DNA of 64,000 nt from Paramacrobiotus metropolitanus (Eukaryota; Tardigrada; Eutardigrada; Parachela; Macrobiotidae), in contig NW_026570245.1 of assembly GCF_019649055.1 (NCBI RefSeq), positions 434,001 to 498,000 of the forward strand, written 5' to 3'. The position numbers were made by a program, and so were the translations under genes. The notes under the pieces were generated by a model, which ran no database searches, had not been told where the DNA came from, and saw only the letters and a list, made by a program, of their open reading frames with translations. Shown here in pieces: positions 45,002 to 53,000 of the stretch (position 1 is the first letter of the stretch; every line of letters starts with the position of its first letter).

Positions 45002-45268
45002 TCAGGTATGAGATGCCAAATTCTTCTGCAGTCTGTTGACCAAAAACATGGAGGCATCAATAAAACGCTCGACGCAGTTACTCAGGCAGACCTCCGTCTT
45101 GCCGTCCAGCTTAGAGGACGGCTTATCCCCGATACACCGATCCCAGCACATATCCGTCAGTTTATGCGCCGAACTCTGCAGCTGCGCTTTCTGCTGCTGC
45201 ACCTGGATGAAATCCTGCAGATCCGAGTCCATTACCGCTGCCAAATCCTCCGATCCGTCAAACGACAT
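45002..45268 (-). CDS. Tim8: Mitochondrial inner-membrane import chaperone Tim8
   Basis: An 88-residue small Tim of the mitochondrial intermembrane space, which with Tim13 escorts hydrophobic precursors toward TIM22/TIM23 (family knowledge). MSFDGSEDLAAVMDSDLQDF leads to the twin CX3C motifs CWDRC and CLSNC. Diagnostic features are the Tim8-type LTDMCWDRC, CVERFIDASMFLVNRLQ and the spacing between the motifs. There is no presequence, as expected. The frame is open 47 codons further upstream, but that extension is hydrophobic and unlike any Tim protein, so the start was placed at the methionine giving the family's usual length. Apparently a single coding exon. Confidence 0.93.
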   Translation of the reverse strand: MSFDGSEDLAAVMDSDLQDFIQVQQQKAQLQSSAHKLTDMCWDRCIGDKPSSKLDGKTEVCLSNCVERFIDASMFLVNRLQKNLASHT

Positions 45269-46885
45269 TCTCACGCGATTCAATCTAAACAATAAAAAAA
45301 GAAACATGTAGAATAGCATTTGCCACAGTCGGATAAATTTACTATATGAATAAGTGTAAAACGTAAAAATGACGAAAAACCGAAATTTACGGCCCCTGAG
45401 TTGCATCATCTAAGTTACTAACGATAAGTACTACGCAAACAGCAGAGCTTCGGCTTTCTGTAAAACCCTCCAATAGTAAATCATTTACAGTATCTGCAAT
45501 CAATCAAAGCAAGGGTTTTAAATTTCGACAGGGTAACGCCGTTTACGGATATTTCCAATGCGAAAAGCCCTCATCCCTGAATCTACTTCCCTTGAAGCTG
45601 CCCCAAAACGGGCCAAAGCACCACCACTGCAAGCCTATGCGTGCTGCCTAGTGCTCACCGATGAACAGACGCACGAGCCGAAAACTACGCAAGACTTCAG
45701 GGATCTCTCAATCTTGAAATTGTATTAGACGTATGAGTTTACGGAAATCAAAGCGAAAAACCGGAAACAAACTGCGAACGGAAGGTGATTGGAATATGTC
45801 AATATGGTACCAGTGCGTAATGCATCGCGAAACCGGAATCAATGTTCCCCAATTACTTACCGCGCGAGTATCTGTGGACTTACGGGTGCTTAACTCCGAT
45901 TTTTCCGATAAATAAGAAGTCGCAGAAATATTCCTGATTTTGTTAAAAACCCAGAAGCATAAATGTACTAGTAAACACAAAGGAAGATCCGTCTCACCCA
46001 GGAGAGATCAATCTGCCGGGAAGATACAGAAACTGTGGAAAATTAAACTGGAAGCGGCAGGAAGCCTGTCACTGGTGCAAATAACCGTGCAATTAGAATC
46101 AGGAAATGTTCTTATGAATAATAATGTTGGTAACGTAACCGTCCACATGGCGCACAGTCATGTCATTATTTTTATTATTTTACCGTATTAAATAAGTTAA
46201 ACCACTGTACAGAGTACATACATGATTTTTTTCCAAATGTGTTTGTTTTCGTTTTTTCGTTAATACAATATGCTTTATACACAACATAAATAATTCATAA
46301 TAATATGCATTATAACGTCTTATAAACATCATTCAACGAGCAAATGCGACATCTCCCTTGGCAAGTAGTGGGAACACTGCGCCATCGATGGCTGATTTAC
46401 TGCACATTAGGGTGATTAGGATCATTTGACCAATTAACGGGGGTAAAAAAATGGAATCAAGCAGTTAGTACACAAGTGCTGCGATGGAGCCATCGAAAAC
46501 AATGTATCATGCAAGAATGCTACCAAATAAAAATATCGGACATGTGCTTGTATTAGTTGTATACCATCAGTAAAGAGCAAAAAATTGCGAAAGAAAGTAA
46601 ACAGTAAATAAAGTAAACAGAGAAATAAGGTAAACAGAATACGGCAAAATTTAAGTTTCAGAATAATCGGTCATTTACATTTTACAAAGCCAAATTTTGG
46701 AAGCCATATTGCTGTAGTTTCGCGCAGCAAGCTATGCAGATACACGAGTACGTTAGTACAATATATCTATATGACAATTAAACGCTGCACTCCATCAAAA
46801 CAACCGACGCAGTGCTTTCAGCGGATTGTGAGCATCGCCAAGTTTGGTTTAATTGTGACCAAATACAATATTTACCAACATTTCG
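45269..46885. other. 1.6 kb region without recognised gene
   Basis: It lies upstream of Tim8 and downstream of the F-box gene (both minus strand). A plus-strand frame starting MRKALIPESTSLEAAPKRAK near 45558 (56 codons) has no homology or splice support. A patch of aaagtaaacag-like repeats occurs around 46590-46640. No gene called. Confidence 0.4.
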
Positions 46886-48983
46886 TCAGTTACTGCCGGC
46901 ATCCAAATAGCGTGTCTTCAGGAACCAAACAGTGGATTTGCGCAGGGATGACAGTGGTGGTAGATTATCAGGGATGCTGTCATAACCGCTGAACGAAGCA
47001 AACCCCTCGTCTCCTGACTGATACACCTTGATCATCTGCAGCAAACAAAACAACGGTAAAAGAATTAATTCATACCGCATCTTACAAGTCAGCTGATAAT
47101 ATTCATGCAAATCCGACATGCAAGCACAAATTATACTTGGGTGTTTGTATTACCGAAAACATATTTTTCCGATGTTTATGGTCAGGATTATCCCACTCGG
47201 TGCGCAACTTTCTCTCTGTATTGACCAAGTCTTCCTTACTAACTCCCGGGTACCAACTTTCCAAAACTGTACCCACACACTCGTCGCGTTTCAAGTTAAT
47301 CGACTGCCGTTTCACCCGATAGGTCACCGTGGATGACTTCGCCTGATGTATGGAAAACAGCATCACATCCACCTCGATTACCGTTAATTTCTCACACACA
47401 TCCGCCCACAGTGGCAGCAGGGGCAGGAAATTTCCACCGCTCCAATAATCGTACACATCGATTATGGTCACTAATAAATTGACCAGCACGATGCGTGACA
47501 CTTTGACACCGTTCAGCTGCAGCATCTTTCGCAGAATGCGCAGTGGCAGGTAGCCGCTCACGTGTGTCCGATTGCCGGTCAGAATCAGCACATTGGTGGC
47601 TGGTAGAAGCAGTTTATGCAGGCGAATGGTCAGAAGTCGCTCACCGCATGTGTCCACATTTAACTCCAACCGGTAGGACAGCAACGACGCCACAAGGACA
47701 TCCCAGGTATGACAGACACTGCGACATTTCAGTTGGTCGTAGACGCTCAAGTGGGTAAATACCGCGTTCAATAAATCCACCGGTAATTCCGTGATACTGC
47801 ACTGATTTTCGTCCAGATCGATGCCACCAGTGACCTCCTGAATTTCGTAAAAGTTCCAGTGTGGCACATTAACGTTGACAAAGGTCATGTAAAAGCACTT
47901 GTGTAGAGTAAAACACGAGAAGTACAAGAAGTTGTAAATTAATGCATAGTTTAGGTAAGTAATTGAAGCTCCGTTACATAACTATTTACAACAATTGTTA
48001 ATCATCTATTAAAAAAATGAAGCTTACCAGAATTGTATTCGCGGTCTTCTTTATGGACGGCGTTTCTTTTCTGTAGCGCATTATTATCGAGAAAAGAACT
48101 CTCTGAAAGATAATGGTTTTTGATTTTGTGTTGCAGTTGCGTTCCCCCATAAATTACGAATAAAATTTAAAAACTGAAAATTAACAGTCTTTTTTAATTT
48201 ATCGAAACTATAACACTGTAATAATGTCGTTGTGAGCGTGTTGACGCTCACCTGTGCACGTGAATTGCTAACCCTTATACTGTGGTGCTACAGCATGCTC
48301 GTAATTTGTACAATACAGTACCTGCAGTATCTAGTGAATACTCTAACTTGTAAACTGCCGCATAAGACCATAAGGTTAAGAAAAAAACAAGATGTGATCA
48401 TGCAACGACAACAACGTACAGCGTGACGGTGAGGGGATGGCTGATTCGATGTTGACGTGTATTTAATTTTATCTCCCTCATATCCCAGGCCGTTTGTACC
48501 CCATTTCTCCCAGAACTGCTTATCCGCCTCCGTCCGACGGGCGCTAGTTCGATCGCGCACTACATGCTTGTAAAGCGCATTTCCTGTCAGCGGTTGGTAC
48601 TCGGTGGGCGCTTTCCGAGCCTGGCAATTCTCCACCACTTCAAGCTTCAGTTTCCCGTTGAAGTTCACTTCCACAAAGACCGTCCTCTGCGTCAGATGGG
48701 CCAGGAAGACGGCCGGATACCAGCACCATGGTTTGTCCGAGGAACGTTGAAGCAGCACCGACACAGTGTCACCACGAATGAATTTGTAGGTATCGCGTCG
48801 CATGGGCGGCTTGAAGCACTGATCGAACGGCACCAGTTGGCGATTTTGGTCAGCGTAGTCGAAGTCCACCATGACGCCCTGCCCGGGAATCACATCCCAC
48901 ACCATTCCGCGCTGCGGAAGTCCGCCGCTTCGCACAACATCCACTACACAGTGGCACTCATCCAAAACCAGTGCCGACAACAT
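46886..48983 (-). CDS. FMRP-like tandem Tudor/Agenet module fused to an F-box
   Basis: Exons 48983-48420, 48102-48028, 47837-47154 and 47035-46886 are all phase 0 and give 490 residues. Residues about 8-120 follow the two Tudor/Agenet repeats of FMRP: VDVVRSGG, DVIPGQGVMVDFDY, RQLVPFDQC, then GDTVSVLLQ, DKPWCWYPA and TVFVEVNF. The next part (YKHVV, RRTEADKQFWEKWG) resembles the FMRP region called KH0. After a 25-residue basic exon, residues about 229-265 form an F-box: ITELPVDLLNAVFTHLS, YDQLKCRSVCHTWDVLV. The rest is Leu-rich (YLPLRILRKMLQLNGVKVSR; LPLLPLWADVCEKLTVIEVD) and may be a divergent substrate-binding part. F-boxes bind Skp1 in SCF ubiquitin ligases; the FMRP module binds methylated or protein ligands (family knowledge). 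That both sit on one mRNA rests on splice-phase agreement. An acceptor-like sequence just 5' of the ATG suggests a 5' UTR intron. Confidence 0.72.
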
Positions 48984-50060: not shown

Positions 50061-53000
50061 TCAATAATAATATCGCCCGCCAACCGGTCGGAACTGGGAT
50101 GAATCCACGGTGGTCGGTTTCACTGGACCGCAGGCCTGAATGTGCTCCCGTGTCCTGATGTGCGCCACCAGCTCTTCACTACTACCAAAGTCCACATTAC
50201 AAACACGACAGGACCGCGACGCTATATTAGCTCGTTTCGTGGGCGGCGACACAGAGTCCGATACGGAGAAACCTTCCACCCATCGAGGAGTCTAAAAACA
50301 AATGGGTGCACATCGCAAATCGGCAATAATTCAAAGTCAACCAAATTAAAAACATAACACGAGGTTTACTGAAATCATGTAGTTGTTGTAGTACAATAGC
50401 ATATCAAATTTACTTAAGCTTTTTCGTCTACGAAGAAGCAGTACATATTATATATACTGTAGTTATTTATAGATTCCGCAGCCTCCAAAGCCGTTCGAGA
50501 CTTCAAGACTTCAAGCCGATATACCTTAAATCATAATTTTGGAAAGGATGTTTGTACAACTGAAAGAAGTACATAATACATACATTTTTTATTATCAACG
50601 TACATAAAACTTAAAAGTACGTTGATAAAAAAAAATCTACAAGCCTAAATCGTCTTCAAGATCATCAATTTACGCTTCAAGCAACACAGCATCTTGCTGT
50701 CAAATAACATAAAGTATGAACAATATCTGTACATTAACACAAGCCCGGAAATTAACCAGTTAATAATTGTCCGAGCTGCGCTAACCTGAGAATCTGCTCT
50801 ACTGTCCGCCCCAGAATTCGGCTGATTTGCACCGGAAGAGAAAGCGTCTTCCATCTCGACCGTCTGTATTTCGTCAGGGGACGTCATGGCATTGTGCCGT
50901 TGACCAGTTTGACGATCATTCTCCTACGAATGATTCATGCGACAATAATCAGAAAGAGAAAACACTATTTCCGCTTCTGAGATGATGAGAATCACCGAAC
51001 ACCCGCTAGCTGATTTGGGAAAACATATAACCTAGCATCTCAAACTAAATTTCGAACGAGAAACAAACAGCAAGCAACTAACCGCCAAAGCCACTATTAA
51101 ATTGAGGAGCAGCTTGTTAACGGAGGGAGAGCTGCCCGTAGGCTCACTGTGAGATCCTGTTTCCTGTTGCGCATGAACCTGATTGGGCCGGTCCTACAAA
51201 AGGCCTTGAAAACCTTCACTTTATCCAACTGAGTTGGCTTAAATTTCACGCTGATAGTGCTTTGTTGATCAATCAACTTCAATGATTAAGGTAGGGAAAA
51301 AAATCAGTCGAGCAGAGCGAAGACCAAAAACAACTATGCTAAAGCCTATGAGATGTAAATTCATCAGATAAAGAAATCAATTCTATTGTTTAACGCTATA
51401 TGCGGGCGTGAATCGTATGTCAAATGTTACAACATTAAAAAATACTAACAAAAGAAGAGTTCCGTACCGATTCCGCATTTCGGACACTTTCATTACGAGA
51501 TCCAGTAGGATCACCAATCGAACGCCGCGGCGGTAGCTGATCATTAACAGCAAAAATATCCCCAGCAAAAGATGACGACCGTGCTGCCAGTTGCTGATAA
51601 AATTCTTCCAAAGCCGGGTCTTCTGGTCTGGCTCTCGGCGCATCCGAGCCATCAAGCGGACGCGGTGGATCCGGTCTCCGTTGCTCGGCCGGATAACGGT
51701 AATCATCACGCGGTTCATGTCTGTAACCATCGCGATCATCCACTGGCCGAAAATCTCCTCCTCTCCTCTCGTCATATCCATATCTAGAATAAATTAGCCG
51801 TTCACTATTATAACTCAATGTCAGAAAATATTCGATATGTCACCATAATGTTTATCGTAACAGGTTTCAAAAAAACTGAGGCATTTCAGAAAATAAAAGA
51901 TAAATGTATTATTTTAAAAAAACCATGCCGTCGAAAATTTTATATGGAGAATTCGAGCTGTACCGCTCCTCTGCTGTTGTATGGTATCCACCGTGCATTT
52001 CCCCAACTCGCTGCTCATGTCCGTTCCTCCTGTCATAATATTCCCTGTCCCGGTCGTTGTATGGTTCGGGACGTCGGTAATCAGTGTCACCGTAATCCAT
52101 TGTTCGGTTAATTTGCTGACGTGGTAACTCAGCTATCAACGGCTGACCAAACATAGGCAATAGCGGCTTTCGCGGGAAATCCAGCAATGGATTCGACATC
52201 CCGGGACGACAAAGCGGCGGTGGCGACGCCTGTAGCAAAGGATTATCCAAACCAGTCGGACAGGCATCCATGCGCAATACCGGCTCATCAGATGGATAAT
52301 GCAATAGTGCTGCCTTCTCGGAGCGAAGAAGAGGAAACAACGGAGCTGGTTCCGGAAGAAGAGACACTAGCGGCTTTGACTACAAGGTGAAAATACCAAA
52401 ATGTCAGCAACAAATACGCTATTATCATAATATTAACAAACACCAACCTTTGGGGGGCTTGGTTTAGGTGCTGTATAAACTGGCGCGGTGGGCTCCTCTG
52501 GAACTGTTTCCTCCGTTTCTGGATAAGTATCGACCCATCCCTGCAAAATAGGATAGTACCGTCAGTCACTTATAACAGAGCAAAAAAAACATTTTCCACC
52601 TTAGATTCCGTGGTGCTCTTTGCTGCGGCGCTTTGAATGTTCCCTGCAGACGGAAACAGCGGAGCCGGGGGTGGACCTGGCTTGCTCGCTCCTGGTTGCT
52701 GCAAGCCTTTTGGAACAACAGGTTCAACTTTGCTCTCCGTTTGTGGTTTGCTTGGTGACTGCTGCATAACAGATGTCACCGTGCTGCTTAACTGCGTTTG
52801 TGGTGACTGCTTAACAGGTGTCACCGGAATCTTATCTTTCTTCGAAAGTCCGAATCCATTGCTTTTCTGCTCCTCAACACGCTTCTCAGCCTCTTCTTTA
52901 GAGACCCGCACCGCCCGTTGCAGTGCCATGAAGCTTCGTTCTTCCGGCACCACGGGTCTGGAAACTTTTTCTGCAACCAGTGGTGCAGAAGCGAGCTGTC

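Follow-up and report, generated by a model that had tools for sequence, protein, structure and literature searches.

Does a single gene of the tardigrade Paramacrobiotus metropolitanus join an FMRP-type N-terminal module to an F-box, and if so, what might such a protein do? The question arises from a minus-strand locus in the window, by which we mean the whole 64,000-nucleotide stretch of DNA that was analysed. A preliminary description, made from the letters of the window, had proposed that the first exon of this locus follows the tandem Tudor repeats and KH0-like segment of FMRP, that three downstream exons supply an F-box, and that the protein might recognize an RNA-granule or methyl-mark ligand.

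The gene model and the family it belongs to

The window gene runs on the minus strand from an ATG at 48983 to a stop codon ending at 46886, and its four exons form one open frame of 490 codons with a single terminal stop. The three introns of 317, 190 and 118 bases are GT/AG and phase 0 throughout, in agreement with the earlier claim that exon 1 is followed by three exons in matching phase, exon 2 being predicted. Exon 1 (48420..48983, minus strand, as are all features that follow) comprises 188 codons, supported by the open frame, the family profile and the genome's own FMR1; it holds the start codon, Tudor 1, Tudor 2 and the beginning of a KH0-like segment. By alignment to FMRP, Tudor 1 lies at 48804..48947 (approximately residues 13-60) and Tudor 2 at 48630..48791 (approximately residues 65-118), and a weak KH0-like segment can be placed at 48420..48581 (approximately residues 135-188) from the profile alignments to PDB sequences and to the genome's own FMR1. 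Predicted intron 1 (48103..48419) leads to exon 2 (48028..48102), whose 25 codons remain a prediction, and predicted intron 2 (47838..48027) leads to exon 3 (47154..47837), whose 228 codons encode the F-box and most of the tail. Beyond predicted intron 3 (47036..47153), exon 4 (46886..47035) provides the end of the tail and the stop codon.

The F-box that had been claimed (47682..47795, residues 228-265 of the spliced model) scores 28.9 bits for PF00646 (cut-off 20.5), and 27.9 bits in the spliced model. Exon 1 by itself matched no Pfam family at E <= 1, and the spliced window model matched F-box families alone in Pfam, with no RING, no SRA and no KH; the window protein sequence contains no RGG. 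The residues of exon 2 do not make a convincing last helix for KH0 (P 0.023 against human FMRP, and 0.27 against the genome's own FMR1), and this candidate role was rejected. At the window copy, a crude splice scorer chose a donor for exon 1 that differs from the modelled one. Elsewhere in the window, also on the minus strand, 45002-45409 encodes a small Tim-type mitochondrial import protein (zf-Tim10_DDP, 84.9 bits), and 50061-50291 is a possible C2H2 zinc-finger exon that falls below Pfam cut-offs. In the wider genome, an Antennapedia homeodomain query matched five places at E <= 1e-10, with best values of 68% over 50 residues and 85% over 34, a result compatible both with the Hox losses known from tardigrades and with their absence.

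The 169.8 Mb genome was searched with the 188-residue N-terminal module as the query. The window module gave 151 matches when the best 150 of 517 candidates were scored, among them the query's own locus and the FMR1 gene of this genome, and two queries from distant subfamilies gave 156 matches (best 150 of 1074 candidates) and 168 matches (best 150 of 918). The FMR1 row and one row at E 0.0074 were removed, and same-strand rows that overlapped or lay <=300 bases apart were merged. The resulting union of the three queries contains at least 387 family loci on 95 contigs, a lower bound for matches in which alleles or very recent copies are perhaps counted twice. For example, L024 matches L025 at 99.9% over 2.9 kb, and L077 (contig C35) matches L081 (contig C195) at 96.6% over 2.2 kb. 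The loci also form dense clusters: C35 carries 46 of them within 1.1 Mb, and C77 carries 17. Some family frames contain stop codons. Family members on C35 and C195 are nearly equally spaced, as in an alternative haplotype or a recent duplication. Judged by these matches, the combination is multiplied to several hundred gene copies in this genome, and the preliminary description, sound as an observation, says too little, as the window gene is one of these copies.

Among pairs of loci whose modules are >55% alike, dN/dS ran from 0.12 to 0.60 for the modules, the top value coming from a single near-identical pair, and from 0.25 to 0.50 for the F-box plus tail; these ranges omit pairs without a finite value, and dS is near or above 1 in many pairs. 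The compared pairs thus appear to be under purifying selection, a sign of constraint on the proteins. The window copy, at <=37% identity to every other aligned member, lies outside the pairs compared for constraint.

Relationship of the module to FMRP

Single family modules are too diverged to be placed by Pfam, with weak matches to Agenet in 11 of 61 members (best E 2.2e-4) and to Tudor_FRX1 in one of 61 (E 0.16), so that a profile was needed. Of the 62 modules fetched for the family, all but L059, which has no stop-free frame, entered our alignment, 61 in total. Searched against the PDB, the profile of this alignment found FXR1 (E 1e-12), three FMRP entries (1.2e-12 to 1.6e-12), FXR2 (1e-11) and a further FMRP entry (2.2e-10), and the next match was uL24m at E 0.12. 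A profile search against FMRP structures, in which another fold would have counted against the assignment, had been proposed as a check, and the family profile led to FXR1, FMRP and FXR2. In the alignment to FMRP, both Tudor domains and the linker are colinear, and the match extends into KH0.

The relationship is also seen directly with the FMR1 gene of the same genome (L005, C5:3432312-3435452, minus strand), which lies in an uninterrupted frame of 610 codons or more and whose Tudor_FRX1 and KH_9 matches exceed their cut-offs. The window module matched this gene in the genome search (E 7.1e-6, residues 13-142, 24% identity), and hhalign aligned the FMR1 protein with the family profile over 170 columns (98.2%, E 4e-14). 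A Tudor-only model scored 40.4 bits on the genome's own FMR1 and 39.1 bits on human FMRP, against 7.8 bits for the highest-scoring of 5000 shuffled versions of the former. Taken together, these comparisons lead us to conclude that the Tudor pair is homologous to that of FMRP/FXR.

The KH0 part is less clear. A KH0-only model built from 55 sequences matched the genome's own FMR1 in the correct place, weakly (13.7 bits, E 0.012; best shuffle 9.0); its six best matches did not include the N-terminus of human FMRP. PF17904, the Pfam KH0 family, was found neither in single members nor in the spliced window model. In five of the six long intronless frames described below, the KH0 model gave faint matches of 3.6-9.6 bits between the Tudor and F-box matches. 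Taken alone, KH0 is therefore weakly supported by sequence, and the claim of an FMRP N-terminal module holds for the tandem Tudor domains and in part for KH0, which is correctly placed. A single-sequence fold of exon 1 (mean pLDDT 32) gave no usable structure model.

Related modules occur elsewhere in the genome. The Tudor_FRX1 model matched 27 places, two of which are in the family union list, and the Agenet model matched seven, three of them in the list. One short plus-strand frame (L006, C106:65813-65929) matches Tudor_FRX1 at 30.5 bits, above the cut-off, and is separate from FMR1 and outside the union list; further Tudor_FRX1 matches above the cut-off are on C209 and at C106:35488. Two open frames of approximately 300 codons, L007 (C57) and L008 (C481), carry an Agenet-like module below the Pfam cut-off and are also matched by the family Tudor model (29.8 bits for L008); the flanks examined contain no convincing F-box.

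Joining of the module to the F-box

Several family members carry both parts without any intron. In six such frames of 491-575 codons (L070 and L077-L081), which are the rows of at least 491 codons among one query's listed matches, the family's own models found a Tudor match followed by an F-box match in all six, the Tudor match of L080 being partial (only 46 residues). L070, the one long frame also run against Pfam, scored 24.7 bits for F-box-like (cut-off 24.3) and 18.7 bits for F-box, below the cut-off of 20.5; a Pfam scan of a 559-residue intronless frame found no KH domain. Because these six uninterrupted frames carry both parts, the fusion is not dependent on a splicing guess, as far as the reading frames can tell.

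The wider family points the same way. We fetched 62 family loci, namely four initial loci and 58 others (ranks 5-40, and every fifth from rank 41), and found a downstream same-strand F-box in 47. Fourteen of these 47 had supplied sequences for the F-box model and 33 were independent of it. An antisense F-box was found in none of 63 loci (the 62 plus FMR1), and FMR1 had no F-box at all. The other 15 of the 62 loci had no F-box within the fetched stretch; for two of them (L013 and L021) an F-box was placed just past it, and the others are unexplained. Across the genome, pairing the best 150 modules with the best 150 F-boxes within <=3 kb gave 30 pairs with the F-box downstream on the same strand, four upstream on the same strand, none downstream on the opposite strand and three upstream on the opposite strand. 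The same pairing with the union list of modules, again within 3 kb, put 50 of the 150 best F-boxes downstream on the same strand, and six, none (downstream opposite) and six in the remaining classes. At first look the genome held 1080 F-box candidates, of which the best 150 were scored, all above the cut-off.

The crude splice scorer placed phase 0 on both sides in 20 of the 43 loci with candidate sites, where approximately five would be expected for random phases; it found no site in four of the 47 loci and gave L062 an impossible intron. Splice models picked by hand for four loci were discarded, as they aligned poorly beyond KH0. The pairwise distances of the two halves, compared over 40 loci, correlate at 0.71, against <=0.19 in 2000 permutations, the pattern expected from a single ancient fusion with later duplications. 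Chance is excluded as the source of the combination because there are hundreds of paralogues, the F-box pairs with the module on the same strand, and intronless frames hold both parts. Thus, the claim that module and F-box belong to one protein is borne out by the six intronless frames, by the 47 of 62 loci with F-boxes in sense and by the absence of antisense F-boxes from all 63.

To characterize the second half, we aligned the 40 F-box-to-end pieces of at least 150 codons from the 47 loci. At E <= 0.1, Pfam F-box-like matched 38 of these and F-box matched 35; one Trp is invariant at the aligned F-box positions, and R, V and C positions are kept in at least 90%. Against the PDB, the profile of these pieces found F-boxes only, over profile positions 2-55, and left the tail without a relative. 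No LRR, FTH or FBA family was found by Pfam at E <= 0.1 in the 40 pieces, the window's included, and the other matches were single, scattered and weak. SKP1-family sequences were found in four places in the genome, which makes SKP1 available to these proteins, though without an expansion to match that of the F-boxes.

Possible function and comparison with known systems

We think that these genes probably encode a family of SCF substrate receptors, in which an FMRP-type tandem Tudor and KH0-like front, providing a second docking surface, is followed by an F-box and a divergent tail. In such a receptor, the F-box would bind SKP1 and hence CUL1, and the tail and Tudor-KH0 module would jointly choose the targets for ubiquitination. 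The module could recruit partners of the FMRP N-terminus, such as RNP-granule or RG-rich proteins, or it could pair with FMRP-like modules.

What might the module recognize? A weak trimethyl-lysine pocket of FXR has been placed in Tud2, with FXR1 Y95, W97, V66 and E104 named as its residues (PMC2970552, part of the text). Among the 61 aligned family members, F32 of Tudor 1 and W79 of Tudor 2, in FMRP numbering, are kept in every one. We take FXR1 Y95, V66 and E104 to be FMRP Y96, V67 and E105, leaving W97 unplaced, and we picked Y68 and Y103 as neighbouring FMRP tyrosines. In the alignment with human FMRP, the Y96 position is aromatic in none of the 61 members; 31 members have V at V67 and 34 have E at E105, and Y68 is aromatic in none and Y103 in three. 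The genome's own FMR1 has Ile at Y96 and Arg at Y103. Since no member has an aromatic residue at Y96, the family is unlikely to use the known Tud2 pocket for reading methyl-lysine, and the suggestion of a methyl-mark ligand loses its footing. A different type of partner has been described for the FMRP Tudor pair, which binds DDX5, FUS, EWSR1 and LSM14A in a manner sensitive to F32L and/or Y96L, potentially via RGG/RG motifs (PMC5430443, part of the text). By analogy, an RNP partner for the family module is possible.

A bolder extension can be drawn from this, in which one animal lineage made the FMRP N-terminal module the shared N-terminal part of an SCF receptor repertoire several hundred strong: Tudor-KH0 would dock on RNP-granule or RG-rich proteins and the tail would select targets, creating a degradation arm against RNP assemblies, perhaps including foreign RNPs. 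We consider this extension doubtful and offer it tentatively. A role outside SCF altogether strikes us as improbable: the F-box would then be a SKP1-independent part of a scaffold, and the family would compete with FMRP for its partners. The small number of SKP1-family places and the invariance of F32 and W79 in 61 members would suit such competitors, and the well-kept F-box positions, with their invariant Trp and highly conserved R, V and C (at least 90% of the 40 pieces), together with the F-box-like matches in 38 of 40, argue against them.

Two other alternatives concern the architecture and its origin. If the Tudor pair had come from another Royal-family or Agenet lineage and converged on FMRP, the weak Agenet matches of single members, their near lack of Tudor_FRX1 matches and the presence of other Agenet-like proteins in the genome would all be natural. 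We give little credence to such convergence, given that the six PDB sequences above noise are all FMRP, FXR1 or FXR2, that both Tudors and the linker are colinear, and that the genome's own FMR1 is matched directly. Nor do we see much room for a pair of tandem neighbours, a small FMRP-like protein gene and a separate F-box gene. The six intronless long frames that hold both parts, the fixed strand and order, and the joint divergence of the two halves make it highly improbable, even though the join in the window relies on predicted introns and 15 of 62 loci had no F-box in the fetched stretch. We therefore retain the reading of a single fused protein that probably acts as an SCF substrate receptor.

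The preliminary description knew of no protein with this order, and judged by titles and the starts of abstracts in the open-licence literature, we likewise found no described family with it. F-box expansions are known from nematodes and plants, and FMRP is usually kept at one to three copies. The novel element would be that the shared extra module of an expanded F-box family derives from FMRP. In hundreds of naturally occurring versions of this Tudor pair, where some positions never vary and the methyl-lysine pocket is altered, residues that maintain the fold can be told apart from those that determine the ligand. A connection of RNP granules to degradation by SCF also becomes directly testable in a small animal.

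How does this family compare with known systems? It shares with the N-terminal domain of FMRP, FXR1 and FXR2 the order of the Tudor pair, the linker and core residues (E 1e-12; F32 and W79 in 61 of 61), and differs in the attached F-box, in the loss of Y96 from all 61 members and in having no Pfam KH in the spliced model or the 559-residue frame. UHRF1 also has a Tudor pair inside a ubiquitin-ligase component. It carries its own RING and SRA domains, neither of which was found by Pfam in the spliced window model. The UHRF1 tandem Tudor has itself been compared with the FXR Tudors (PMC2970552, part of the text). FBXL proteins differ in the leucine-rich repeats after their F-box, which were not found here. 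The expanded F-box families of Caenorhabditis (F-box-FTH, F-box-FBA2 and HTH-F-box; PMC8665587 and PMC12062965, each in part) are similarly large and lineage-specific, with divergent C-terminal parts and, in the HTH class, an added domain. In the tardigrade family, by contrast, the added part is FMRP-type and the tail has no Pfam FTH or FBA match; the words Tudor and Agenet do not appear in the main text of either paper. Finally, an F-box protein and the FMRP family are already linked in SCF-Fbxo4, for which FXR1 is a substrate (PMC5688124, part of the text). There, the FMRP relative is the protein to be ubiquitinated, whereas here the FMRP-type module would belong to the F-box protein itself.
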